From assembly GCA_024232355.1 (NCBI GenBank), contig JAAEPW010000058.1, positions 1 through 26,515 on the forward strand: a DNA stretch of 26,515 bases. Direction: 5' to 3'. Below are positions 6,489 to 26,515 of this stretch, one piece after another; position 1 is the first letter of the stretch, and every line of letters begins with the position of its first letter. This DNA comes from Chloroflexota bacterium (GTDB taxonomy: Bacteria; Chloroflexota; Anaerolineae; B4-G1). Position numbers and translations under genes: made by a program. A model generated the notes under the pieces. That model was not told the DNA's origin. It did no database searches and worked only from the letters and a program-made list of their open reading frames with translations.

Positions 6489-6975
6489 TTCGGAATTGCG
6501 AGCTGCGATAGATGCGCGGGAAAGACGATGAATAACAGGCCAGGGAGTTTCGAAGAATGGCGAGATGATGTCGCGGGCAGGATAAGCTCATCACCGCTGT
6601 GGAACTCGATAGGCTACCAGAAGACGCTGTTCTTGTACGATCTCGTCTGGTTTGATTGCGAGAAATTGATACAAGACTTGAGAGGAAAAGCAATCGCACA
6701 ACAGTTGATACGCAGTATTGGCTCGATCAGTGCCAATATGGAAGAGGGCTATGGCCGTGGGTTTGGCAAGGATTATGCCCGTTTCCTGAGCTATTCTCTC
6801 GGTTCCGCCCGCGAGACGCAAGGTTGGTATTTTCGGGCCAAGCACCTGCTGTCAGAAAGTGTTGCGTCACATCGCTATGCTCTGGTAGATGAAATCATTG
6901 CTCTCCTAGTCACAATCATCAAACAGCAAAAAAAGACAAAGTAAGAATCGCGAGTTGCGAATTCGCAATTCCGAA
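6489..6975. mobile_element. Candidate four-helix-bundle insertion cassette with flanking inverted repeats
   Basis: TTCGGAATTGCGA (6489-6501) and its exact inverse TCGCAATTCCGAA (6963-6975) bracket the small four-helix-bundle gene. Similarity continues imperfectly on both sides (GCGAGCTGCGAT on the left, ATCGCGAGTTGCGA on the right). The cassette occupies the whole space between the FadN-like gene and the thiolase gene, which are normally adjacent. IVS-type genes are known as insertions in 23S rRNA genes; a free-standing copy with its own repeats suggests a mobile unit. No transposase is present, so movement would be in trans or historical. Confidence 0.45.
6528..6944 (+). CDS. Four-helix-bundle protein (23S rRNA intervening-sequence protein family)
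   Basis: This 138-residue protein matches the S23/IVS four-helix-bundle family. Visible features are W-x-x-Y/F-helix spacing around residues 38-60, then QQLIRSIGSISANMEEGYGRG (about 64-84), KDYARFLSYSLGSARETQ (about 86-103) and a last helix from about residue 118. The family is found encoded inside rRNA intervening sequences and as stand-alone genes; its function is unknown, although it forms pentameric bundles with a basic surface. An N-terminal extension of about 30 residues (MNNRPGSFEEWRDDVAG...) precedes the core. The ribosome site is weak (GGGAAAG). It has no obvious role in fatty acid metabolism, so its place in the operon probably reflects insertion. Confidence 0.85.
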   Translation: MNNRPGSFEEWRDDVAGRISSSPLWNSIGYQKTLFLYDLVWFDCEKLIQDLRGKAIAQQLIRSIGSISANMEEGYGRGFGKDYARFLSYSLGSARETQGWYFRAKHLLSESVASHRYALVDEIIALLVTIIKQQKKTK

Positions 6976-11981: not shown

Positions 11982-12632
11982 ATGAACCATTATCTAGAAA
12001 CAGTTGCCGAACGCATACAGGCCGATTTTAAGACCCGCAACGGTGTCCGAGACGAAACATTGCGCCGCTCCCGCGAGTTGATCCGGATATGCGCAACTGC
12101 CATCCGCGCCAGCCACCGCGATGAATGGGATTCCGCCCGCGAGTTGCTGACCCAGGCCGATGCAGTCGCCGAAGAAATCCGCCAATCCACCGCCCCCTAC
12201 CCCAAGTTATTGCACGCCGGTTATACTCAGGACGCACTGAAGGAATTAGTCGAGGCTCACATCACTCTGGCGCTTGCCGGCTCCACGTCCATCCCGGAAC
12301 CAGAAACGTTGCAGGTGGCCTATCCAACTTACCTGAATGGGCTTTGTGAGGCCGCCAGCGAGATGCGACGCCGCTGCCTGGACGAACTGCGACGCGGCAA
12401 TACAGTCGAGGCCGAACGGTTGCTGGGAGCGATGGACGAAATCTACGACATGCTGGGCACTTTTGACTTTCCCGATGCCATCACCGGCGGGCTGCGCCGT
12501 CGCGTAGACCAACTGCGCGGTGTGCTGGAACGCACACGCGGCGACCTGACCAACAGCCTGCGCCAGGATCGGCTAATCCGCGCTCTGCACGATTTTGAAG
12601 AACGTGTGGGGGATGGGGAAAATAACGGATAG
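11982..12632 (+). CDS. Translin-family protein
   Basis: This 216-residue, almost wholly helical protein matches translin/TRAX. Recognisable segments are ALKELVEAHITLALAGS (the family's EYVEA-like helix, about 85-101), PTYLNGLCEAASEMRRRCLDEL (about 114-135), TVEAERLLGAMDEIYDMLGTFDFPD (about 140-165), and a closing LRRRVDQLRGVLERTRGDL. Translins are known to form octameric barrels that bind single-stranded DNA or RNA; with TRAX they make the C3PO RNase in animals, and archaeal homologues exist. Whether this protein cleaves RNA depends on acidic residues I cannot align with certainty. It sits between DUF3467 and a Cas4-like nuclease, with five bases to the next ATG, so it is likely cotranslated with that gene. 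Confidence 0.82.
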   Translation: MNHYLETVAERIQADFKTRNGVRDETLRRSRELIRICATAIRASHRDEWDSARELLTQADAVAEEIRQSTAPYPKLLHAGYTQDALKELVEAHITLALAGSTSIPEPETLQVAYPTYLNGLCEAASEMRRRCLDELRRGNTVEAERLLGAMDEIYDMLGTFDFPDAITGGLRRRVDQLRGVLERTRGDLTNSLRQDRLIRALHDFEERVGDGENNG

Positions 12633-12637
12633 ACAAA

Positions 12638-12877
12638 ATGAGCGGTGACCGGGTCATTCGGGCCAGTGAGATTGGGCAGTACACCTACTGCGCTCACGCT
12701 TGGTGGTTGAGCAGTGTGGAGGGATTGCCATCGTCTCACCAGCAAGAAATGGCAGCGGGTGAGATAGTCCATCGTCGCCACGGGCGAGGAGTAAGTGTTT
12801 CCTTCTGGCTGAATCGGCTGGCATACGTTGTGTTGCTGCTGGCAGTGGTCGCTGGGATCGTGTGGCGGGTGAAATAG
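12638..12877 (+). CDS. N-terminal half of a split, membrane-anchored Cas4/RecB-like Fe-S nuclease
   Basis: This 79-residue ORF begins ASEIGQYTYCAHAWWL, like the N-terminus of Cas4-type nucleases, where the first Fe-S cysteine sits in a YxxC(P) motif (Cys18). It continues EMAAGEIVHRRHG, resembling motif I with its metal-binding His (His45). It then ends in one transmembrane segment (about residues 57-76, AYVVLLLAVVAGIVW) and VK. The remaining nuclease motifs are in the next ORF, ten bases on and in another frame, which starts with a second transmembrane segment. Joining them would need both a stop bypass and a frame change, so two polypeptides that pair through their membrane helices is the simpler reading. 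Confidence 0.65.
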   Translation: MSGDRVIRASEIGQYTYCAHAWWLSSVEGLPSSHQQEMAAGEIVHRRHGRGVSVSFWLNRLAYVVLLLAVVAGIVWRVK

Positions 12878-12887
12878 TTGGTCTTTG

Positions 12888-13400
12888 ATGGCACTTTGGT
12901 TCTTTGGCCTGCTGATATTGGGATTGTTGCTGCTCTGGTTGGCGCGACGCGGCCACGCGCGCAGCGGACTACCCCAGGGCCGTGTGATTTATACCGACAC
13001 CGGAGGGTGGAACCGGCTGGAACGCCCGCTTTTTTCGCAGGAATTCCGCCTTACCGGCAAGCCCGATTACCTGGTGGCCGATAGAGCCGATGTCATCCCC
13101 GTCGAGGTCAAATCGAGCCTCGCTCCGGCCCAACCCCGCCCCTCGCACATCCTCCAACTGGCCGCGTATTGCCTGTTGGTCGAGGAATGCTACCAGCGCA
13201 GACCACCTTACGGCATCATCAAATACGCCGACCACGCCTTTGAGGTAGACTATACGCCCGAATTGGAAGACGAACTGTTGGCAACATTGGATGATATGCG
13301 AGACGACTTGGATCACAATGACGCCCCTCGCAACCACGACGAACCCGTTCGCTGTCAATTCTGCGGCTACAATCAACACTGTGAACAAAATCTGATATAA
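12888..13400 (+). CDS. C-terminal half of a split, membrane-anchored Cas4/RecB-like Fe-S nuclease
   Basis: This 170-residue ORF starts with a transmembrane helix (about residues 2-18, LWFFGLLILGLLLLWLARR) whose trailing arginines place the rest in the cytoplasm. The PD-(D/E)XK nuclease core follows: GKPDYLV supplies the motif II Asp, PVEVKSS the E-x-K pair, and HILQLAAYCLLVEE the QxxxY motif. The end, CQFCGYNQHC, holds three cysteines that with Cys18 of the previous ORF make the four ligands of a Cas4/Dna2/AddB-type [4Fe-4S] cluster. I used the ATG at 12888; a TTG one codon earlier is possible. No strong ribosome site is seen, which points to translational coupling. No cas gene or CRISPR array is nearby. 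Confidence 0.8.
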   Translation: MALWFFGLLILGLLLLWLARRGHARSGLPQGRVIYTDTGGWNRLERPLFSQEFRLTGKPDYLVADRADVIPVEVKSSLAPAQPRPSHILQLAAYCLLVEECYQRRPPYGIIKYADHAFEVDYTPELEDELLATLDDMRDDLDHNDAPRNHDEPVRCQFCGYNQHCEQNLI

Positions 13401-16178: not shown

Positions 16179-19100
16179 CTATTTCCTTGCGCGTTTACTT
16201 TGCGCAAATTCGTACAAGATTTCCTGGCGAGTGACCACATTCTTCAAAAACGAGCGTCGCATTTCCAAGTCGGTGATCTTGGCCGCTTGCTCTTGCAGCA
16301 AACGGTGTGCTTTGTCCAAGACGTCCTGCGCACGAGGCTCCTGGCTGGCACGTAAGATACGGATACAAGTCAAGTAAACTCGGAAAGGCTCCTCAGTACC
16401 ACCGAGGGTATGGCTCTCTAGATGGCTCAAAATCTTTTCGACGTGGGCCCGAGCCTGAGATAGATTACCCTCGGCCAGACGTATGCGGGCCAATCCAGCC
16501 AAAGGCTCCATAGCCAGACTGTGCTCGCCCAACTCGCACCGCAGCGTATAGGCACGTTGGTAATAGTTGGCAGCTTGTTGCATGCGGCCCAGGCCCGCCA
16601 GCGCGTGGCCCAGGTTCGTCAAGGCATATCCCTGGTAACGACGGTCGCCGGTTTCCTGCACGATGCGCAACGCCTCTTGGCTGTGTTCCCACGCGGCCCC
16701 ATCGTCACCCAACTGGTGGAAAAGCAAAGCCAGATTGGCCATCGTATAGCCCTCTAGCCCCCGCCCACCGACCTCGTGGCTCACGCTGATCCCCTGCTCG
16801 AGATAGGTTCTGGCTTTGTCATAGTAACCCAGGTGCGTAAATACGAGACCCAAGTTGAGGAGCACAACCCCCTCCCTCCGTCGATTGCCAATCTCGTGAC
16901 AGAGATGCAATGCCTGATCAAAGCACGTCTTGGCCTCGACAAGCTCGACTTGGAAGTAAAAGACCACGCCAAGGTCGTTGAGCGACTCGCTCTCACCGCG
17001 CCGGTCGCCAATCTCGCGGCAGATGTGCAGTGCCTGGCCGTAATAGGCTCTGGCCTCAGTATACTTGCCTTGATATTCAGACACAATACCCAAATTGCGC
17101 AAACTATCCGCCTCTACCTGACGCAACCCCACCAACCGGGCCAGCTTTAAGCCTTGCTCAAGCCGCGCCCGAGACGCCTCATAATCCCCCCGTCGCCAGA
17201 GAGCCACTCCCAACCGCTGGCACCCCAGCGCCTCGCGGCTCACGTCCTCGACCGCTTGGGCCAAGTCGATGGCCGACTGAGCCGCCGCTATAGCCGCCAC
17301 ATAGTCGCTGGTTGCCTCAGCATAGTGCGCCCGACGCAGGGCCACCTCGGCCCGCAGCCCATTATCATCCAGGGCTTGGGCCAGCTTTTCCAAAGCCACT
17401 AGGTCTTGATCCTGCTCCTCGCGGGCCCCCTGCAAATCGTACACCTTTTCGCGAACCAGCAAGAGATTGTAACGCAACACCTGTTCATCCTGCGGTGCCA
17501 GGTCGAGCGCGCGGATCAAGTAGCGGACCACCTCTACATTGGCAAACCTTTCTGCTGCTTGTTCTCCAGCCTGCCGCAAATAGACCACTGCCTGCTCGAT
17601 TTGTCCTGCTCTTTCCAGGTGATCGGCAACCAGGCCCAGATGTTGGTCCACCTCGGCATCGCTGTGGTCCAACAGCCACGCCGCCACTTGACCGTGGTGC
17701 TCGCGTCGCGCCTCGCGCGGAATGCTCTCGTACCCCACCTCCCGCACCGTGGGATTGAGGAACAAATACTCGGGCTCTCCAACAAAGGCCGTCTCGTTCC
17801 GAACGGCCACCAATCCCTGCTCCGCCAAGTCTCCCAATACTGCCCTCACCTGCGCCCGAGGCACCCGCCCCACTTGCGCAATGCTGCCCTCCCAGAATAC
17901 CAAACCCACCACCGCCGCCCATGCCAACGTCTCCCGCGCCTCATCTGACAACTGGACCAACCGTCGCTCTACCACTTGGCGGATGGACTCGGGCAACTTG
18001 GCCTTTTGCAACGCTTGCCCATCCACCTGCCAGCCCGCTACCGTCCGCCGCAGCACTTGGCCCTCTGCCGCCAATGATCGAATCAACTCTTGCACGAAAA
18101 AAGCATTGCCCCCTGTGGTCTGTTGCACCCGCTCCATCAACAGCGCCGGCACCTGCTCCAACCCCAACATCGAGCGGACCAAATCAGCCGTAACATCGGT
18201 GGACAGGGTTTGTAACGGAATACGCTGCACTTGATCACCAGACAGTGAAAGCAATGGATTCTCAGGACCAATCTCGTCACTACGATAGGTCGCACACACC
18301 AATAGACCTTTTGGCACAGAAACCCGCGCCAAGAAACCCAGCATCTCTAGCGTGGCCTCTTCTGCCCAATGTACGTTCTCGATCACAATCACCGTAGGCC
18401 GCAAGCACGCCGCCGCCCGCATCACACTCGCGATAGCATTGTTTAACCGTAACCGTGCTGCTTGTGGTTCGAGATCCGCGGGAGGCGTCAGACCCGCCAT
18501 GTATTCCCGTTCCCACAACTCGGGCAGCAGTGCCGTTAACACCGGCCCCACCTGCTGCATTGTCTTGGTGCTCGCCCCCTCGACATAACGCACCAACACC
18601 CGTAGTGCCTCCCGCCAGGGCTGGTATGCGCTCCCGCCGCGCTTCACACACTGCCCCCATACCACCCGCGCCCCTTCCAGCTCGGCCTTTACTTCCAGCT
18701 CTATGACCAACCGTGATTTGCCTACCCCGCTCTCTCCACTGATCAATATCAGCTTGCCCGTGTCCGACTGGGCTTGCTCCCACAGGGCCTGGAGCATCTC
18801 GATTTCCCCCTCACGATTCACAAAGCGCGTTCGCAGGGCATAACTCTCCGCTGTCTCGCGCGTCTCTAATGCATACGTGCTCCCCATACCCCTATTTATT
18901 GCCTCAATTACTTCATTGGCACTGGCATACCGCTTTTCGGGAGCGATCGCCAGCAATTGCGCGATCACATTACCAATGTTTACCCAATCCAGCCCTTTCA
19001 ATGCTTCGCGCAGCATGAGCCTGATCAGATGCTCGGCGCCAAACATAAACTCGGGAGCCTCCCCCACTAGCAGAACATACCATAACGCCCCCAGGCTGTA

Positions 19101-19682
19101 CAGATCGGCGCGGTGGTCAACCGGACGCGACTCTTTCATCTCTGGCGCAGAATAGCCCGGCGAATAGTAGCACGTCCGCGCCTCCGGCGACCTGATCTCG
19201 AGCGCGATGCCAAAGTCTACGATTTTGATCTGCCCGTCTACCATCAACACATTCGCCGGTTTGAGATCGCCGTGGATCACGCCCCGGCTGTGCAAATAGG
19301 CCAGCGCTCGACAGACCTGCACAATGATGGGCACACTATCGCCAGGCGTTAACTGGCGTCCGTACAGTTCTAGATCTTGCCCCTCAATCCACTCCATCGT
19401 GAAATACAACCCACCCTCAATCATGATGCCATAATCATAGACCGAGACCAGATTAGGATGGCGCAATTGGGTCAACAACTGGAACTCGCGTCGAAAATAC
19501 TCCACCCGCTCGTGTCTCTCTCCCGCTCCTTCCAAACGCACCATCTTGAGAGCTACCACATCGCCGTCCTGCGCATCGTCAGCCACGCGGTAAAGGGTAC
19601 CCATCCCACCCTTGCCGATCACATCCAATACGCAGTATCGGTTCTCGATCAGTTCTCCAATCTCAAATCTCGTCTCTACCAT
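16179..19682 (-). CDS. Ser/Thr-kinase-like / STAND ATPase / TPR protein, paralogue 1
   Basis: This is a 1167-residue three-part signalling protein. The kinase-like domain (about 16-265) has the G23-x-G-x-x-G28 loop, Lys46, Glu66, the catalytic loop HGDLKPAN (Asp139) and DFG (Asp156). The HRD arginine is replaced by Gly, so it is a non-RD kinase, and the activation segment YYSPGYSAPE follows. An AAA/STAND-type ATPase domain comes next, with Walker A GESGVGKS (316-323) and a Walker B-like VIVIENVHWAEEATL near residue 430. About ten TPR-type repeats (roughly 700-1080) lead to a conserved C-terminal block. No DNA-binding or membrane segment is seen. I chose the ATG at 19682 (AGGAG six bases before it) because it aligns with paralogue 2; ATG 19700 would swallow that ribosome site. 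It overlaps paralogue 2 by 20 bases. Confidence 0.9.
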   Translation of the reverse strand: MVETRFEIGELIENRYCVLDVIGKGGMGTLYRVADDAQDGDVVALKMVRLEGAGERHERVEYFRREFQLLTQLRHPNLVSVYDYGIMIEGGLYFTMEWIEGQDLELYGRQLTPGDSVPIIVQVCRALAYLHSRGVIHGDLKPANVLMVDGQIKIVDFGIALEIRSPEARTCYYSPGYSAPEMKESRPVDHRADLYSLGALWYVLLVGEAPEFMFGAEHLIRLMLREALKGLDWVNIGNVIAQLLAIAPEKRYASANEVIEAINRGMGSTYALETRETAESYALRTRFVNREGEIEMLQALWEQAQSDTGKLILISGESGVGKSRLVIELEVKAELEGARVVWGQCVKRGGSAYQPWREALRVLVRYVEGASTKTMQQVGPVLTALLPELWEREYMAGLTPPADLEPQAARLRLNNAIASVMRAAACLRPTVIVIENVHWAEEATLEMLGFLARVSVPKGLLVCATYRSDEIGPENPLLSLSGDQVQRIPLQTLSTDVTADLVRSMLGLEQVPALLMERVQQTTGGNAFFVQELIRSLAAEGQVLRRTVAGWQVDGQALQKAKLPESIRQVVERRLVQLSDEARETLAWAAVVGLVFWEGSIAQVGRVPRAQVRAVLGDLAEQGLVAVRNETAFVGEPEYLFLNPTVREVGYESIPREARREHHGQVAAWLLDHSDAEVDQHLGLVADHLERAGQIEQAVVYLRQAGEQAAERFANVEVVRYLIRALDLAPQDEQVLRYNLLLVREKVYDLQGAREEQDQDLVALEKLAQALDDNGLRAEVALRRAHYAEATSDYVAAIAAAQSAIDLAQAVEDVSREALGCQRLGVALWRRGDYEASRARLEQGLKLARLVGLRQVEADSLRNLGIVSEYQGKYTEARAYYGQALHICREIGDRRGESESLNDLGVVFYFQVELVEAKTCFDQALHLCHEIGNRRREGVVLLNLGLVFTHLGYYDKARTYLEQGISVSHEVGGRGLEGYTMANLALLFHQLGDDGAAWEHSQEALRIVQETGDRRYQGYALTNLGHALAGLGRMQQAANYYQRAYTLRCELGEHSLAMEPLAGLARIRLAEGNLSQARAHVEKILSHLESHTLGGTEEPFRVYLTCIRILRASQEPRAQDVLDKAHRLLQEQAAKITDLEMRRSFLKNVVTRQEILYEFAQSKRARK

Positions 19683-22600
19683 TTGTCTCTCCTGAATCAC
19701 TATTCGGCCCGACCGCTGCGGTCAGCTTTCGCCATTCGTTCACGATCTCCCGGTGGACGGCCACATTCTCCAAAAATGAACGTCGCATTTCCTCGTCACT
19801 GATCTTGGCAGCTTGTTCTTGCAATAGATTGTGGGCGCTGGTCAGTATATCGCGGGCGCGTGAATCTTGATAGGCGCACAGAACATGGTAACAAGTCAAG
19901 TAAATTCGAAAAGGATCACTTATGCCAGACAAGGTGCTGCTGTCCAAATAGTCCATAATCTCCCCTATCTGAAGCAGTGCCCGATCCGTATCTCCTTGTA
20001 CCAAAAACGCACGAGCCAGTCCGGCCAGAGGTTCCAGAACCACAACAGAATCATGCAATCCTCGTCTGATGTCTACTGCGTGGTGGAAGGCATCAACAGC
20101 ATCATCCAGATATTTCTGTGCATATTTCAAGGCTGTGGGCTGCTGTGAGTCGGCAATGGCATCTCCAACCCTGACCAACCCGACCAATGCATCTCCTAAA
20201 GCGATCAAGGCATGACCTTCACCTACTCTGTGCCCCACCTCGCGGGCGAGTGTCAAGGCCTGTTCACAATAGTTCCGTGCTCTGACATGGTCTCCTTGAA
20301 TAATGGCAACAACTCCTAAATCATTGAGGGCCAGGCTCTCGCGTACCTGGTCGCCAATCTCGCGCGCAATTATTATGGACTGTTCAAAATACTCCCGTGC
20401 CTTGGCATAATCACCCAGGCTGCGAGCGATAACTCCCAGGTTGAGCAGCGTGATTCCCTCAACCCTTCGGTCACCGATCTCACGAAAGAGAACCCGGACC
20501 TGGTCAAAATAGTCCCACGCTTGGCCATAATCCCCCAAAAGGCGGGCAACAAACCCCATATCGTGAAGTGCCCACCCCTCGGCTTGCCGATGACCCATTT
20601 CGCGCGCAATCTCTAGGGATTGTTCATGATGATATTGTGCCCCAGCATGATCTCCCTGGCTGAAAGCAAGCCCCCCCAACATACGAAGAACCCTGCCCTC
20701 AACCCGCCGATGACCAATTTCTCGGGCAATTTCCAGAGATTGCTCATAATAGTCCCGTGCCCTGATACGATCTGCTAAACTGAGCGTGACAAGCCCCAGA
20801 GTGAGCAAGCATTCCGCTTCCAAATCACGCTGTCCGGTCTGTTTTGCCAAGGCCAGAGCGGATGTCAGGTGCTCACTCGCAACCGCATGTTTGTTTTGTT
20901 GTCGCAGCGTTTCTCCCCACAACAACTGTGCTGCTGATTCCCGCTCCACGTCTCCGGCGGCTTGGGCCTGGGCGACGGCGACTTGGATCGCCTCAATCGC
21001 CCCTGCATAGTCACCGGTAGCAATAGCGACCTTTGCCCGGCGCGAGGCTACCTCGGCTTGTTCTCCTGGTCGCTGCCATATCTGTACCAGGGTCTCCATT
21101 ACGTTCAAGTCTTGAATTTGCGCATCTCTCGCCCCTTGCAAGTGATAGACCGTTTCGCGGGTTAGCAACAACTCGTAACGAGTAGTGATGTCTTGTTCTG
21201 GCACCAGCACCAGGGCGCGACTCAGATACAGGATCGCTTGTTCATTGGCAAACTGTGCCGCCGCCTGTTCCCCGGCCCGGCGTAGATACCCCACCGCTTG
21301 TTCGACTTGTCCTGCCCTTTCCAGATGATGGGCGATCAAGCCCAAATGCTGACTGGTATCCTCGTCAACCCGCTCCATTACCCACGCCGCCACCCGTTTG
21401 TGATGCGCTTGTCGTTCCTCGGCAGCCACACGCTCATAGCTTGCTTCTCGCAGCACCGAACTGTGAAAGAGGTATTCCGTCTCTCCCTCAAAAGTCGATT
21501 CGTCCCTGGCCACTATCAACCCCTGCCCCAAAACCTCGTGCAGTGCCGTGCGCACCCACTCACGCGTCACCTGCCCTATGTCTGCGACTGCGCCTTCCCA
21601 GAACACCATCCCCATCACTGCTGCCCAGCCGATCACGTCCCGCGTCTCTTCCGACAACTGCTCCATCCGCCGTTCTACCACTTGCTGAATCGACTCGGGC
21701 AGCCGTGCCTCTTGCAGCGCTCTCCCGTCTACCTGCCATCCCGACACCGTCCGCCGCAGCACCTTGCCCTCTACCGCCAACGAGCGAATCAGTTCCTGCG
21801 CAAAGAAAGCGTTTCCCTCCGTCGTCCGCTGTACCCGTTCCGACAGCAGTACCGGCAGTTCCTCCAACCCCAACATCGAGCGCACCAACTCGGCGATGTG
21901 CTCCGTCGACAGCAATTGCAACGGAATCCGCAGCACCCGTTCTCCCATCAATGAGGCCAACAGATGATCAGGGGATATCTCGTTGACACGATAGGTGACG
22001 CAGACCAACAATCCCGTCTGCCCAGACGTCCGCGCCAACAAACCCAACAATGCCAGTGTCGCTTCATCCGCCCAATGCACATCCTCGATCACGACCATCG
22101 TAGGCCGCTGCCCCGCCGCCGCTTGCAACACCTGTACGATCGCATTGTTGAGTCTCTGCCCAGCCGCCTGGGGGTCCAACTCTGCCGGTGGCGCGGCACC
22201 CACCATATACGTTCGCTCCCATAATTCGGGCAGCAGTGTCGCCAACACCGGCCCCACCCGCCGCATAACGGCCTCATCTCCCGCTTCCACGTAACGCACC
22301 AAAACCCGCAGCACCTCGCGCCAAGGATGATAGGCGCTCTCTCCACGCTCCACGCACTGCCCCCACACCACTCGCGCCCCGCCCAGTTCTGCTTGCACTT
22401 CCAACTCTCTCACCAACCGCGTTTTGCCTATCCCACTCTCCCCACTGATCAGTATCAGCTTGCCCTCGGTGGATTGGGCCTGTTCCCATAACATCTGGAG
22501 TATTTCGATCTCTGTCTCGCGATTCACAAACTGCGTTCGCAACGCATAACTGCTGGCTGTCTCTCGGGTTTCCAGGGTGTATGTGCTCCCAGTGACCCTA

Positions 22601-23400
22601 TTCACCGCTTCGATCACCTCGTTCGCACTGGCATAGCGCTCATCGGGAGGCGTCGCCAGCAACTGGGCGATTATGGCTCCGATCTCTGACGCATACGCCT
22701 GATTTTTCAGGGCTTCATTCAGTGTGAGCTTGATCAGATGCTCAGCACCAAACATGAACACAGGGGGCTCTCCCACTAACAAGGCATACCACAATGCCCC
22801 CAAGCTGTACAAGTCGGCGCGATGGTTGATCGGGCGTGGCTCTTTTATCTCGGGCGCGGAATAGCCCGGCGAATAGTAGCGCGCCCGCGCCTCTGCCGAC
22901 CGCACCTCCAACGCGATGCCAAAGTCAATGATCTTGACCCGCTCATCAGCACCATCCGACATCAACACGTTGGCCGGTTTGAGGTCGCCGTGGATCACAC
23001 CCCGGCTGTGCAGATAGCCCAGCGCCCGGCAAACTTGAATAATTATGGACACGCTGTCGTCGAGCATCAACCGACGTCCGTGCAGCTCCAAATCCTGTCC
23101 CTCGGCCCATTCCATCGTAAAATATATGCCACCCCCAACCGTGATCCCATAATCATAGACTGAGACCAAATTGGGGTGGCGCAGTTGGGTCAACAACTGG
23201 AACTCGCGTTGAAAATGTTCGATCCGCTCACGTTTCTCTCCCGCTCTCTCCAGACGCACCATCTTGAGGGCGATCACCTTGTCCTGCTGTGCCTCGTCAG
23301 CCACGCGGTAAAGCGTGCCCATCCCGCCCTTGCCGATCACGTCCAGCACACGGTAACGATTCTCGATCAATTCGCCGACTTGGAATTCGGTGTCTGTCAT
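19663..23400 (-). CDS. Ser/Thr-kinase-like / STAND ATPase / TPR protein, paralogue 2
   Basis: This 1245-residue protein has the same architecture as its neighbours and is the only one complete with extra TPR repeats. Kinase residues are Lys46, HGDLKP with Asp139, and DFG at Asp159, with a three-residue insertion before it. The ATPase part has Walker A GESGIGKTRLV and Walker B-like MVVIEDVHWADEATL, the classic form. The TPR array runs from about residue 770 to 1130 with repeated EIGHRRVEG/EIGDRRVEG units. The conserved end block, DPFRIYLTCYHVL to MRRSFLENV, is followed by an extra 20-residue tail (LTAAVGPNS...). That tail is encoded by a copy of the dispersed palindromic repeat and causes the overlap with paralogue 1. 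GGAGA lies six bases before the ATG. Confidence 0.9.
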   Translation of the reverse strand: MTDTEFQVGELIENRYRVLDVIGKGGMGTLYRVADEAQQDKVIALKMVRLERAGEKRERIEHFQREFQLLTQLRHPNLVSVYDYGITVGGGIYFTMEWAEGQDLELHGRRLMLDDSVSIIIQVCRALGYLHSRGVIHGDLKPANVLMSDGADERVKIIDFGIALEVRSAEARARYYSPGYSAPEIKEPRPINHRADLYSLGALWYALLVGEPPVFMFGAEHLIKLTLNEALKNQAYASEIGAIIAQLLATPPDERYASANEVIEAVNRVTGSTYTLETRETASSYALRTQFVNRETEIEILQMLWEQAQSTEGKLILISGESGIGKTRLVRELEVQAELGGARVVWGQCVERGESAYHPWREVLRVLVRYVEAGDEAVMRRVGPVLATLLPELWERTYMVGAAPPAELDPQAAGQRLNNAIVQVLQAAAGQRPTMVVIEDVHWADEATLALLGLLARTSGQTGLLVCVTYRVNEISPDHLLASLMGERVLRIPLQLLSTEHIAELVRSMLGLEELPVLLSERVQRTTEGNAFFAQELIRSLAVEGKVLRRTVSGWQVDGRALQEARLPESIQQVVERRMEQLSEETRDVIGWAAVMGMVFWEGAVADIGQVTREWVRTALHEVLGQGLIVARDESTFEGETEYLFHSSVLREASYERVAAEERQAHHKRVAAWVMERVDEDTSQHLGLIAHHLERAGQVEQAVGYLRRAGEQAAAQFANEQAILYLSRALVLVPEQDITTRYELLLTRETVYHLQGARDAQIQDLNVMETLVQIWQRPGEQAEVASRRAKVAIATGDYAGAIEAIQVAVAQAQAAGDVERESAAQLLWGETLRQQNKHAVASEHLTSALALAKQTGQRDLEAECLLTLGLVTLSLADRIRARDYYEQSLEIAREIGHRRVEGRVLRMLGGLAFSQGDHAGAQYHHEQSLEIAREMGHRQAEGWALHDMGFVARLLGDYGQAWDYFDQVRVLFREIGDRRVEGITLLNLGVIARSLGDYAKAREYFEQSIIIAREIGDQVRESLALNDLGVVAIIQGDHVRARNYCEQALTLAREVGHRVGEGHALIALGDALVGLVRVGDAIADSQQPTALKYAQKYLDDAVDAFHHAVDIRRGLHDSVVVLEPLAGLARAFLVQGDTDRALLQIGEIMDYLDSSTLSGISDPFRIYLTCYHVLCAYQDSRARDILTSAHNLLQEQAAKISDEEMRRSFLENVAVHREIVNEWRKLTAAVGPNSDSGETNGRDEI
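19702..19723 (-). repeat. Dispersed palindromic repeat, copy 2, inside coding sequence
   Basis: The minus strand here matches 2603-2624 at 21 of 22 bases, including the GACCGC-A-GCGGTC palindrome. It encodes the LTAAVGPN segment in the C-terminal tail of paralogue 2, a tail absent from the other two paralogues. This suggests that the repeat was inserted and extended the gene. Confidence 0.5.
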
Positions 23401-23421
23401 TTGATGTCTCCTAAAGTAAAA

Positions 23422-26400
23422 TCATTCACCCTTGTCAAATTCGCCCCGCGCGAACTCGCGCACAATCTCCCGGTGGTAGAGCACATTCTCCAGGAACGAA
23501 CGTCTTATTTCCTGATCGGTGATCGCAGTGGCCTGCTCCTGCAACGCCTGGTACGCTGTCTCCAGGACAGACCGAGCACAAAGATCGTCGTTGGCCTGCA
23601 GCACCCGGTAGCAGGTGAGGTAGATGCGCATAGGCTCCTCGGTGCCGTCCAGGGAGTTGTCTTCCAAATAGGTCAGAATCTCCTCCACTTGGGCCAGAGA
23701 CAGGTCCAGCTTCCCCTGGGCCAAAGACACCCGAGCCAGCCCGGCCAGCGACTCGATGACCAGATGATGTTGGCCTATCTCTCGACGCAAGTCTATGGCC
23801 TGCTGGTAAAAGTCAGCAGCTCCTTCCAGTTGTCCCAACCCCTCGAGGGCATAGCCCAGGACAGTCAAGGAAAATCCCTGGTTGCGGCGATCGCCGATCC
23901 GTTGGGTGACTCGCAGAATATGGGCGCTCTCTTCCCTGGCAGCCCGATTATCTCCCATCAGATGGAAAAGCCAAGCCAGGTTGCTCTGCGCTATAGCCCA
24001 GCCCATCATATCACCGATCTCCAGTTTGATCGGTACAGCCTCTTTGGTCAAGCGCTGGGCCTCAGCATAATCCCCCCAGAGCAGAAAAGAGTTACCGAGG
24101 TTGAGCAATAAGCGGCTCTCATTCTTCCGGTGACCGATCTCGCGGGTAATTTGGAGCGATTGCTCGTAATAGTTCTTGCTTGCCAGGTAGTCACCGCATT
24201 CACCAAATATCATACCCAAGGTGTTGAGAGCATCACTTTCACCTACGCGATGGCCGATCTCCCGGCACAAATCCAGAGCCTGTTTGGCGTACGCCTCAGC
24301 CTGATTGTATTGCCCCCAGGCCCAAAACACCTGTCCCAGATAGTGCAGGCTTTGCGCCTCGACATCCTGGTTACCACCTTTTCGGGCCAGGATCAGAACT
24401 TGTTCTAGCCTGGTGCGCGCGGCTTGATAGTCTCCCTGGCGAAATAGGCCAATACCCCACTCAAAATGACCTGTTGCCTCCAGGTTGATATTCTGGATGG
24501 CCTGGGCAAACTGGATGGCTTCTCGGGCCGCCGCGATGGCCGCGGGATAGTCGCTGGTAACGTCGGCATAGCGGGCCTGCTGTAGGGCCACCTCGGCCTT
24601 GCGCGTGTTGTCGGCCAACGAATATGCCAGTCCTCTCAACACTGTCAGGTCCTGTTGCTGCGCCTCGCGATCGCCCTGGTAATCGTATATCTTTTCTCGG
24701 TTCAGCAACAAGAGATAGCGTCTTTCCCGGTCGTCTTGGGGCGTCAGGCACAGCGCCCGGCTCAAGTATCCCGCGACCTCGGCGTTGGCAAACTGTGATG
24801 TTGCCTGTTCCCCGGCCCACTGCAAGTAGATCACTGCTTCCTCTACTTTACCGGCTCTTTCCAGGTGGTCAGCGATCAGGCCCAGATGCTCGCTTACTTT
24901 TTCGTCGCTATGAGCCATCAACCACTCAGCCATCCGGCCGTGGACTTTCTGTCGCTCTTCCTGCGAGATGCTCTCATAGCTCACCTCCCGCACCGTGGGA
25001 TTGAAGAATAGGTACTCGCGCTCTCCGACAATGGACGTCTCATCTCGCTCCATGATCAATCCTAAATCTACCAACTCTCCCAACCTCGCTTGCACCCACG
25101 CCCGCGACACCTGCCCCACATCTACTACCCCGCCCTCCCAGAATACCAACCCTGTCACTGCTGCCCACGCCAACACCTGCCGCGCATCCTCCGATAGCTG
25201 GGGCAATCGTCGCTCCACCACTTGCCGGATCGACTCGGGCAATTGTGCCACCCGCAACACATCTCCATCCACCTGCCAGCCCTCCACCGTCCGGCGCAGC
25301 ACCTTCCCCTCGGCTGCCAACGAACGGATCAACTCTTGCACGAAAAAGGCATTGCCGCCCGTCGTCTGCTGCACCCGTTCCATCAGCAACGCTGGCAGCT
25401 CTTCCAGGCCCAACATTGAACACACCAGCTCTGTGGTATATTTTGGTAAAAGCATTTGTGTTGGAATACGCAGCACCTGGTCTCCCGTCAACCCAACCAA
25501 TGGATGCGCTGTCCCGATCTCGTCGCTACGGTAGGTGACGCACACCAACAATCCTGTTTGCCCAACCGTGCGCGTCAAAGAACCCAACATTGCCAGTGTG
25601 GCTTCATCCGCCCATTGAGCGTTTTCGATCACGACCATCGTCGGCCGCAACTTGGCTGCTGCCCTCAGTGTCTGGACGATGGCGCTATGCAAACGCTGTC
25701 GCGCTGCTTGGGGGTCCAATTCTGCTGGCGGCGTTAGACCCGTCATATAATCTCGCTCCCACAACTCGGGCAAGATCGCCGCCAGCACTGGTCCCACCCG
25801 ACTCGTATCTAGCGCTACCTTTTGCGACAGCCCCACACCTTCCACATAGCGTATCAGAACTCGCAACACCTCGCGCCACGGTTGATAGGCACTGCACCCG
25901 CTCTCCACGCACTGTCCCCACACAACCCGTGCTCCCTCTAGTTCGGCTCGTATCTCCAACTCCTCCACCAATCGTGTCTTGCCCAACCCACTCGCCCCAC
26001 TGATCAACACCAGCCGGCCCTCGCCAAACTTGGCCTGTTCCCACACCGTCTGGAGCACCTCCATCTCTGCCTCGCGGTTCACAAAGCGCGTTCGCAGCGC
26101 ATAGCTGCTGGCCGTCTCCCGCGTTTCCAACTGATATGTGCTCCCCGTGATCTCGTTCACCGCTTCGATCACCTCGTTGGCACTGATGTACCGTTTCTCA
26201 GGAGATGATGCCAATAAGCGGGCAATCATCCCACCAAGGGCCATCGGAACCTGTTTCTGGGCTTTCAAGGCTTCGTTCAGTGTGAACTGTATCAGTCGCT
26301 CGGCGCCAAACATGAACACGGGGGCTTCCCCCACCAACAAGGCATACCACAGTGCCCCCAAGCTGTAGAGGTCAGCGCGGTGGTCAACCGGACGCGACTC

Positions 26401-26515
26401 TTTCATCTCTGGCGCGGAATACCCCGGTGAATGGTAGTGTGTCCGATCCTCCGCCGACCTGATCTCGAGCGCGATGCCAAAGTCTACGAGCTTGACGCGG
26501 TGGCTAGTGCCACCG
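23422..26515 (-). CDS. Ser/Thr-kinase-like / STAND ATPase / TPR protein, paralogue 3 (5' end beyond window)
   Basis: The reading frame stays open to the window edge, giving 1030 visible residues. The first are GGTSHRVKLVDFG, so the kinase N-lobe and catalytic loop lie outside. The visible part has DFG, YHSPGYSAPEM, the rest of the kinase C-lobe, Walker A GASGLGKTRLV, and a Walker B-like VVIENAQWADEATL in which the usual His of HWAD is Gln. A TPR array (visible residues about 640-950) and the shared end block follow. A methionine at 26406 lies within the APE motif, so it is not the real start. It ends 21 bases before paralogue 2 and is probably upstream in the same operon; their promoter is not in the window. 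Confidence 0.9.
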   Translation of the reverse strand, partial: GGTSHRVKLVDFGIALEIRSAEDRTHYHSPGYSAPEMKESRPVDHRADLYSLGALWYALLVGEAPVFMFGAERLIQFTLNEALKAQKQVPMALGGMIARLLASSPEKRYISANEVIEAVNEITGSTYQLETRETASSYALRTRFVNREAEMEVLQTVWEQAKFGEGRLVLISGASGLGKTRLVEELEIRAELEGARVVWGQCVESGCSAYQPWREVLRVLIRYVEGVGLSQKVALDTSRVGPVLAAILPELWERDYMTGLTPPAELDPQAARQRLHSAIVQTLRAAAKLRPTMVVIENAQWADEATLAMLGSLTRTVGQTGLLVCVTYRSDEIGTAHPLVGLTGDQVLRIPTQMLLPKYTTELVCSMLGLEELPALLMERVQQTTGGNAFFVQELIRSLAAEGKVLRRTVEGWQVDGDVLRVAQLPESIRQVVERRLPQLSEDARQVLAWAAVTGLVFWEGGVVDVGQVSRAWVQARLGELVDLGLIMERDETSIVGEREYLFFNPTVREVSYESISQEERQKVHGRMAEWLMAHSDEKVSEHLGLIADHLERAGKVEEAVIYLQWAGEQATSQFANAEVAGYLSRALCLTPQDDRERRYLLLLNREKIYDYQGDREAQQQDLTVLRGLAYSLADNTRKAEVALQQARYADVTSDYPAAIAAAREAIQFAQAIQNINLEATGHFEWGIGLFRQGDYQAARTRLEQVLILARKGGNQDVEAQSLHYLGQVFWAWGQYNQAEAYAKQALDLCREIGHRVGESDALNTLGMIFGECGDYLASKNYYEQSLQITREIGHRKNESRLLLNLGNSFLLWGDYAEAQRLTKEAVPIKLEIGDMMGWAIAQSNLAWLFHLMGDNRAAREESAHILRVTQRIGDRRNQGFSLTVLGYALEGLGQLEGAADFYQQAIDLRREIGQHHLVIESLAGLARVSLAQGKLDLSLAQVEEILTYLEDNSLDGTEEPMRIYLTCYRVLQANDDLCARSVLETAYQALQEQATAITDQEIRRSFLENVLYHREIVREFARGEFDKGE

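Follow-up and report, generated by a model that had tools for sequence, protein, structure and literature searches.

In a 26,515-nucleotide stretch of DNA from a Chloroflexota bacterium (contig JAAEPW010000058.1 of assembly GCA_024232355.1; hereafter the window), two neighboring open reading frames (ORFs), ORF1 and ORF2, encode the N-terminal and C-terminal halves of a Cas4-like nuclease, with a hydrophobic helix from each at the break. We propose that ORF1 and ORF2 form a two-subunit, membrane-tethered nuclease of the solo-Cas4 type (a Cas4 gene outside cas loci), and we put the probability of this at roughly 0.77. Our confidence in any particular role for the pair is much lower. If the proposal is correct, then one active site and one iron-sulfur (Fe-S) site are divided over two genes and seem to be anchored at the membrane, across much of the phylum and in some organisms outside it. 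The known Cas4-type nucleases are single chains and are mostly found with CRISPR.

The two frames together match one Cas4

ORF1 and ORF2 cover different parts of the same profiles. ORF1 matches positions 2-44 of the NCBIfam Cas4 profile TIGR00372 (E = 2.7e-05, 24.1 bits, under the cut-off of 65) and ORF2 matches positions 60-179 (E = 2.8e-19, 69.6 bits, over the cut-off). The Pfam family Cas_Cas4 (PF01930) gives the same picture: positions 3-41 for ORF1 (17.5 bits, under the cut-off of 22.7) and positions 53-158 for ORF2 (37.3 bits, over it). The matches are collinear and complementary, which is more than chance would give. Joined together, the two ORFs are one Cas4 minus a short stretch, and the two hydrophobic helices occupy that place. 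The His, Asp, Glu-x-Lys, and QxxxY nuclease motifs of Cas4 are complete only over both chains together, and of the four Cas4 cysteines, one is in ORF1 and three are in ORF2. Also, when the end-to-end profile of ORF1 and ORF2 was aligned to a single-chain archaeal solo-Cas4, the alignment spanned 168 columns at an hhalign probability of 99.9. Cys18 falls on the N-terminal Cys of solo-Cas4 and His45 on its motif-I His, the Asp, Glu, Lys, and remaining cysteines also line up, and the helix block has no counterpart. For the two halves, PADLOC lists Cas4-type models and the PD-(D/E)XK protein DruK.

An earlier reading of the window from its letters alone (the original prediction) had claimed that the cysteines and motifs are divided over two ORFs and that each ORF has one hydrophobic stretch at the break, and all of these features are where it placed them (Table 1): the hydrophobic stretches are the end of ORF1 and the start of ORF2. 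The ORFs are in separate reading frames with a spacing of 10 nucleotides. We take the ATG at 12888 as the start of ORF2; the ORF list instead has the TTG at 12885, one codon earlier.

Table 1. Features of the split nuclease and the gene upstream of it (positions in the window)
Feature	Positions	Strand	Description
ORF1	12638..12877	+	79 aa; N-terminal half of Cas4-like nuclease; predicted cytoplasmic part, then one predicted membrane helix
Cys18 of ORF1	12689..12691	+	putative first Fe-S ligand
His45 of ORF1	12770..12772	+	motif-I-like
Predicted membrane helix of ORF1	12809..12865	+	about residues 58-76; hydropathy 2.07
ORF2	12888..13400	+	170 aa; C-terminal half; one predicted membrane helix, then nuclease core
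Predicted membrane helix of ORF2	12891..12947	+	about residues 2-20; hydropathy 2.59; modeled helix 2-26
Asp60 of ORF2	13065..13067	+	catalytic-type Asp of GKPD
Glu73-x-Lys75 of ORF2	13104..13112	+	in VEVK
Gln90 of ORF2	13155..13157	+	in QLAAY (QxxxY motif)
C156-x2-C159-x5-C165 of ORF2	13353..13382	+	putative other three Fe-S ligands
Translin-like gene	11982..12632	+	directly upstream of ORF1; matches Pfam Translin with 23.6 bits (E 5.9e-05), short of the cut-off of 25.9

Structure models are consistent with this division. Both halves fall into place when a model of one natural fusion of the two (see below) is superposed on Cas4 structures. The model of the window's ORF2 alone mostly matches Cas4 only from about residue 51-65 on, and it is mostly without the part of Cas4 that ORF1 supplies. 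The ORF1 profile had one match in the PDB, to a designed protein (E = 0.01), which we took as chance.

ORF1 and ORF2 are distinct, conserved genes

To see how the split is conserved, we used a sample of 400 Chloroflexota genomes, 131 of which have a match to the ORF2 profile (E ≤ 1e-12). We divided these post hoc by E-value into 86 close genomes (≤ 1e-40), 34 mid-range genomes (1e-40 to 1e-22; largely Ktedonobacteria, going by their names), and 11 weak ones. The ORF1 profile (E ≤ 1e-5) matches all 86 close genomes, 14/34 mid-range genomes, and just 3/280 others, namely G039 (with a weaker ORF2 match adjacent), G330 (a weak match, 2.3e-6), and G063 (discussed below). The shortfall in the mid-range is due at least partly to the profile model, because a looser local search (E < 0.1) finds an ORF1-like segment in each of the 16 mid-range loci that we fetched, out of 34 (in 2 of them it is in ORF2's frame). 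More widely, there are 121 homologs of ORF1 (the best 120 have 74-99 amino acids) and 7714 homologs of ORF2 (the best 120 have 166-187 amino acids); the latter must include ordinary Cas4s. In the tree, the nearest relatives of the window's pair are Chloroflexota labeled as Thermoflexia and Anaerolineae, and the genome nearest to the window is G001.

Cas4 is usually a single chain; instead, all 86 close genomes have two genes. The halves are adjacent in 68 of these genomes, are separated by another gene in 7, and are unlinked in 11. Eight of the unlinked pairs are on separate contigs. The others share a contig at distances of 182 kb (G350) and 887 kb (G289), both on opposite strands, and 2.8 Mb (G209). 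In a targeted look at 13 genomes, including all 11 with unlinked halves, ORF1 was present every time, and the unlinked halves have intact motifs. The relative frames of the adjacent pairs are divided 45/13/10. Because of the unlinked pairs, the intervening genes, and the varied relative frames, ORF1 and ORF2 are two genes rather than one broken gene. Among the 69 pairs in the fetched loci, 29 overlap and a further 19 lie within 30 nucleotides of each other, which fits with coupled translation.

We take the intervening gene to be a HEAT-repeat protein in five genomes (G333, G081, G298, G378, and G393) and a YkuD-type protein in the other two (G185 and G012), as recognized from their sequences. 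Locus L027 has a 70-amino-acid frame between ORF1 and ORF2 (1282-1491 of that locus) that is similar to the last part of the HEAT-like gene found between the halves in L017-L023. This frame has no Pfam match and is apparently an insert in decay, next to a pair that is itself intact.

The original prediction named an intact soluble frame in close relatives as its refutation. We saw no such case: in the main-group loci that we examined, no stop-to-stop frame holds more than one half. Rather, relatives keep the two-gene split and both helices, along with Cys18 and His45. For residue counts, we removed three duplicate loci (L010 of L001, L011 of L009, and L035 of L006), which left 81 main-group loci for ORF2 and 71 loci, two of them mid-range, for ORF1. 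D60, E73, K75, Q90, and Y94 of ORF2 are identical in 81/81 loci, and Cys156, Cys159, and Cys165 are each present in 80/81 (the other has a gap). In ORF1, His45 is His in 71/71 loci and Cys18 is Cys in 69/71 (the remaining two have gaps).

Predicted topology and a proposed mechanism

The hydrophobic stretches are also conserved. Across 69 pairs (mid-range loci excluded), the mean hydropathy of the ORF1 stretch is at least 2.0 in 69/69 and that of the ORF2 stretch is at least 1.6 in 67/69 (it is weaker in L078 and L083). The charges are on opposite sides of the two helices: in the 15-residue flanks, the mean number of Lys and Arg falls from 3.2 to 0.3 across the ORF1 helix and rises from 0.2 to 3.4 across the ORF2 helix (N-terminal to C-terminal flank). 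By the positive-inside rule, 67/69 pairs are compatible with both soluble parts inside, which is their placement in the hairpin that was originally suggested.

From the gene pairing, motifs, hydrophobic helices, and predicted fold, all of which were seen by computation, we infer the following mechanism. ORF1 and ORF2 would each cross the membrane once. Because both domains are predicted to face the cytoplasm by the positive-inside counts, the helices could pair as a hairpin and so join the halves. ORF1 would contribute the first Fe-S cysteine and the motif-I His, and ORF2 would contribute the Asp, the Glu-x-Lys, the Gln, and the remaining three cysteines. As each half supplies part of both sites, the nuclease and its Fe-S site would form in full only once the two subunits have assembled in the membrane. 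The substrate might be single-stranded DNA, processed near the membrane. This role is a guess, drawn from known Cas4 relatives and from the translin and SSB neighbors that some members of the family have. DNA entry is a plausible role. We tentatively suggest a broader scenario, which we consider possible but doubtful as a whole: neither half cuts or holds a cluster alone; pairing of the helices builds the enzyme only on the membrane's inner face, and the assembled enzyme guards or processes incoming or membrane-anchored DNA; and the split is ancestral and was kept in four phyla, with fusion coming later and with a loss of catalysis.

If the two-subunit proposal is true, then the ORF2 proteins that now carry the label "CRISPR-associated exonuclease Cas4" are each half of an enzyme, with a partner annotated as hypothetical, and an ORF2 protein that is expressed alone should be inactive. 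The pair would be a natural split nuclease, and it gives an entry point to the question of what solo-Cas4s do.

Fused forms

The original prediction also asked about fused versions. We found these only in a distant Ktedonobacteria branch, and they retain both helices. With the L096 fusion as the query there were 340 matches, and among the best 120 there are 16 single chains of at least 270 amino acids. All 16 have two hydrophobic stretches in the middle of the chain; one is apparently truncated. Like the pair, these proteins (in part P0242-P0262) consist of both halves, and the two hydrophobic stretches lie where the halves meet. Unlike the pair, they are single chains of about 320-340 amino acids with a longer linker, and most have lost Asp60. 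In a tree of 148 rows, with some long branches and many weak forks, the fused rows are nested in the Ktedonobacteria branch among split forms and are found nowhere else in the family. The state changes 6 times, and at least 5 of these changes are forced by well-supported branches. Because of this nesting and the repeated changes, fusion is probably secondary and repeated, with re-splitting as the alternative.

The three C-terminal cysteines are present in 16/16 fused forms, Asp60 is replaced by Thr, Ala, Ser, or His in 15/16, and the His45 column is Glu in 15/15 (several of these have a His at the next position). The split proteins of the Ktedonobacteria type are intermediate: among the 104 proteins listed, Asp60 is kept in 77 and replaced in 27. 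Thus, in the Ktedonobacteria-type forms (L084-L097, P0242-P0361), the Fe-S cysteines outlast the active site.

Weighing the proposal and its alternatives

Overall, the original interpretation is supported by the conservation of both halves, by the placement of the fusions in the tree, and by the superposition of the fusion model on Cas4. Several observations weigh against it. The co-occurrence of ORF1 and ORF2 is partly shared descent. Genome G063 (locus L142, on contig C48) has a clear ORF1 beside translin and no ORF2 was found in that genome, which is either an incomplete assembly or a genuine ORF1 without ORF2. On the 5.6-kb contig of L005, there is no ORF1 within 4.4 kb upstream of ORF2. 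The catalytic residues are partly or mostly lost in the Ktedonobacteria and fused forms. And the fusion model has a low-confidence linker, with five models of uneven quality.

First, the loss of catalytic residues suggests another explanation, in which the pair is a degenerate, non-catalytic membrane protein that keeps the Cas4 fold and the Fe-S site as part of a sensor, a redox system, or a scaffold. The fused forms, with their retained cysteines and, in nearly all of them, a replaced Asp60 and motif-I His, are what this explanation would expect. However, the main group, including the window, has D60, E73, K75, and Q90 in every locus, along with His45, so we consider it rather unlikely.

Second, the pair could be a DNA-uptake nuclease that works with ComEC in natural transformation. 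The predicted membrane position and inward-facing domains fit with this, and a ComEC match is found in 84/86 close genomes versus 260/314 others. But this association may be explained by lineage and genome size, and ComEC is so nearly universal (344/400 genomes) that it hardly discriminates. Also, G001 and G388 have the pair and no ComEC match, and we saw no com genes among the recurrent neighbors. This reading is therefore unlikely.

Third, the pair could act in trans with Cas1-Cas2 as an accessory nuclease for CRISPR adaptation. Cas1 matches are more common in genomes with the close form (66/86 versus 92/314), although this too may reflect lineage and genome size. This seems very unlikely because 20/86 close genomes, including the nearest one (G001), have no Cas1 match (drafts may be incomplete) and because, in the 10 genomes with Cas1 and the pair on one contig among the matches listed, the closest Cas1 is 34 kb away (G177). 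Furthermore, some genomes (G010, G035, G044, G111, and G147) have a separate, weak match to the ORF2 profile directly beside Cas1; by their position, these are ordinary CAS-Cas4s. On these counts, the pair itself is outside of cas loci in the close relatives and not adjacent to cas1 or cas2. No cas gene was identified in the window, in a scan that covered eight of its proteins.

Finally, the idea that a sequencing error or decay into a pseudogene has broken a single ancestral chain, or that a programmed frameshift rejoins it in translation, is rejected: the frames do lie side by side in most genomes (68/86), but a frameshift would require adjacency and a constant frame, whereas 18/86 pairs are not adjacent and the frames vary, and the presence of ORF1 in 86/86 close genomes, the conserved start codons, helices, and motifs, and above all the intact unlinked halves leave it a negligible chance.

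Relation to known nucleases

The two-subunit nuclease that we propose is most like solo-Cas4 (COG1468 / PF01930, TIGR00372). The joined halves share its domain, its motifs, its four cysteines, and its location away from cas genes; in contrast, solo-Cas4 is one gene, and the pair is two genes with two predicted membrane helices at the break. CAS-Cas4 and the Cas4/1 fusion (8d3l, 7mi4) are single chains in adaptation complexes, whereas the pair has no adjoining cas1 and has a predicted membrane hairpin inserted. In the Fe-S RecB-type nucleases EXO5, AdnA, Dna2, and AddB, a single chain holds the whole nuclease domain, unlike in the pair. Helicase parts are present in AdnAB, AddAB, and Dna2; the 79- and 170-amino-acid chains of the pair have no helicase match in the profile scans.

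In its main text, one report describes a monophyletic solo-Cas4 in many Chloroflexi (PMC5704561), and these are perhaps the ORF2 proteins of the pair; the words "transmembrane" and "split" are absent from that main text. The same report also names solo-Cas4s of Thermoanaerobacterales. Among open-licence papers, judged mostly by titles and the beginnings of abstracts, we found no report of a split or membrane Cas4.

Occurrence beyond Chloroflexota

Both halves are also present at two Woesearchaeota loci (L007 and L008), and the Woesearchaeota genome G401 has a second ORF2 (L102). Of 148 Woesearchaeota genomes, 27 have a match, which reaches the level of the split form only in G401; the other 26 are weak, and the three of their frames that we looked at are single-chain. 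With tblastn, we found adjacent ORF1 and ORF2 on three Bacillus subtilis plasmids, which makes tests of the pair practical; B. subtilis DSM 5611 is a strain with such a plasmid. The pair is also on Planctomycetota plasmids of Paludisphaera (PALBO2) and Singulisphaera (pSINAC03), and a shorter copy is annotated in Planctomyces sp. SH-PL62. Seven divergent rows all agree in Glu11, Cys18, Trp22, Gly41, and His45 of ORF1 and, for ORF2, in D60, E73, K75, Q90, Y94, and the cysteines. No relative of the pair was found in viral contigs or phage records, with only near relatives within reach of the search, so a viral origin is unsupported.

On the B. subtilis plasmid CP120602.1 (L162, 3474-4438), a helicase gene and a 77-amino-acid ORF precede the pair and an hfq-annotated gene follows it; the plasmid also carries Flp-pilus-type, SNase, and toprim genes. 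On the two Planctomycetota plasmids (L163, 3636-7387; L164, 1-2896), a DNA methyltransferase gene adjoins the pair, which hints at a defense or restriction context.

Gene neighborhood

The original prediction placed the pair beside translin. This holds for only part of the family: translin is directly before ORF1 in 14 distinct loci (L001-L004, L026, L043, L056, L061, L066, L067, L072, L076, L142, and the window). Counting repeats, translin is found in 20/120 locus entries; in the genome of L009, it is 9 kb away. In some members of the family, the translin-like gene probably forms an operon with the pair. PADLOC lists nothing for its protein. The best match of this protein is to the NCBIfam PRK14562 series, "haloacid dehalogenase superfamily protein" (E = 6.9e-78), far above Pfam Translin, and that NCBI name looks wrong for it.

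Clustering of the neighbors gives clade-level neighbors, and our simple ORF caller also picked up false antisense ORFs (for example, cluster 3). DUF3467 recurs in 13 locus entries and SSB in 10, repeats included. Others are presumably RseP, NAD kinase, and so on, going by names that we recognized. We recognized no cas or defense gene among the recurrent clusters, which were not given a dedicated defense scan.

Elsewhere in the window, three long, similar tandem ORFs (16179-26514, minus strand) are presumably proteins with a Ser/Thr kinase, an ATPase, and TPRs, as recognized from their motifs; the first two overlap slightly. A small protein at 6528-6944, between fatty-acid oxidation genes, is presumably of the four-helix-bundle (23S intervening sequence) family.
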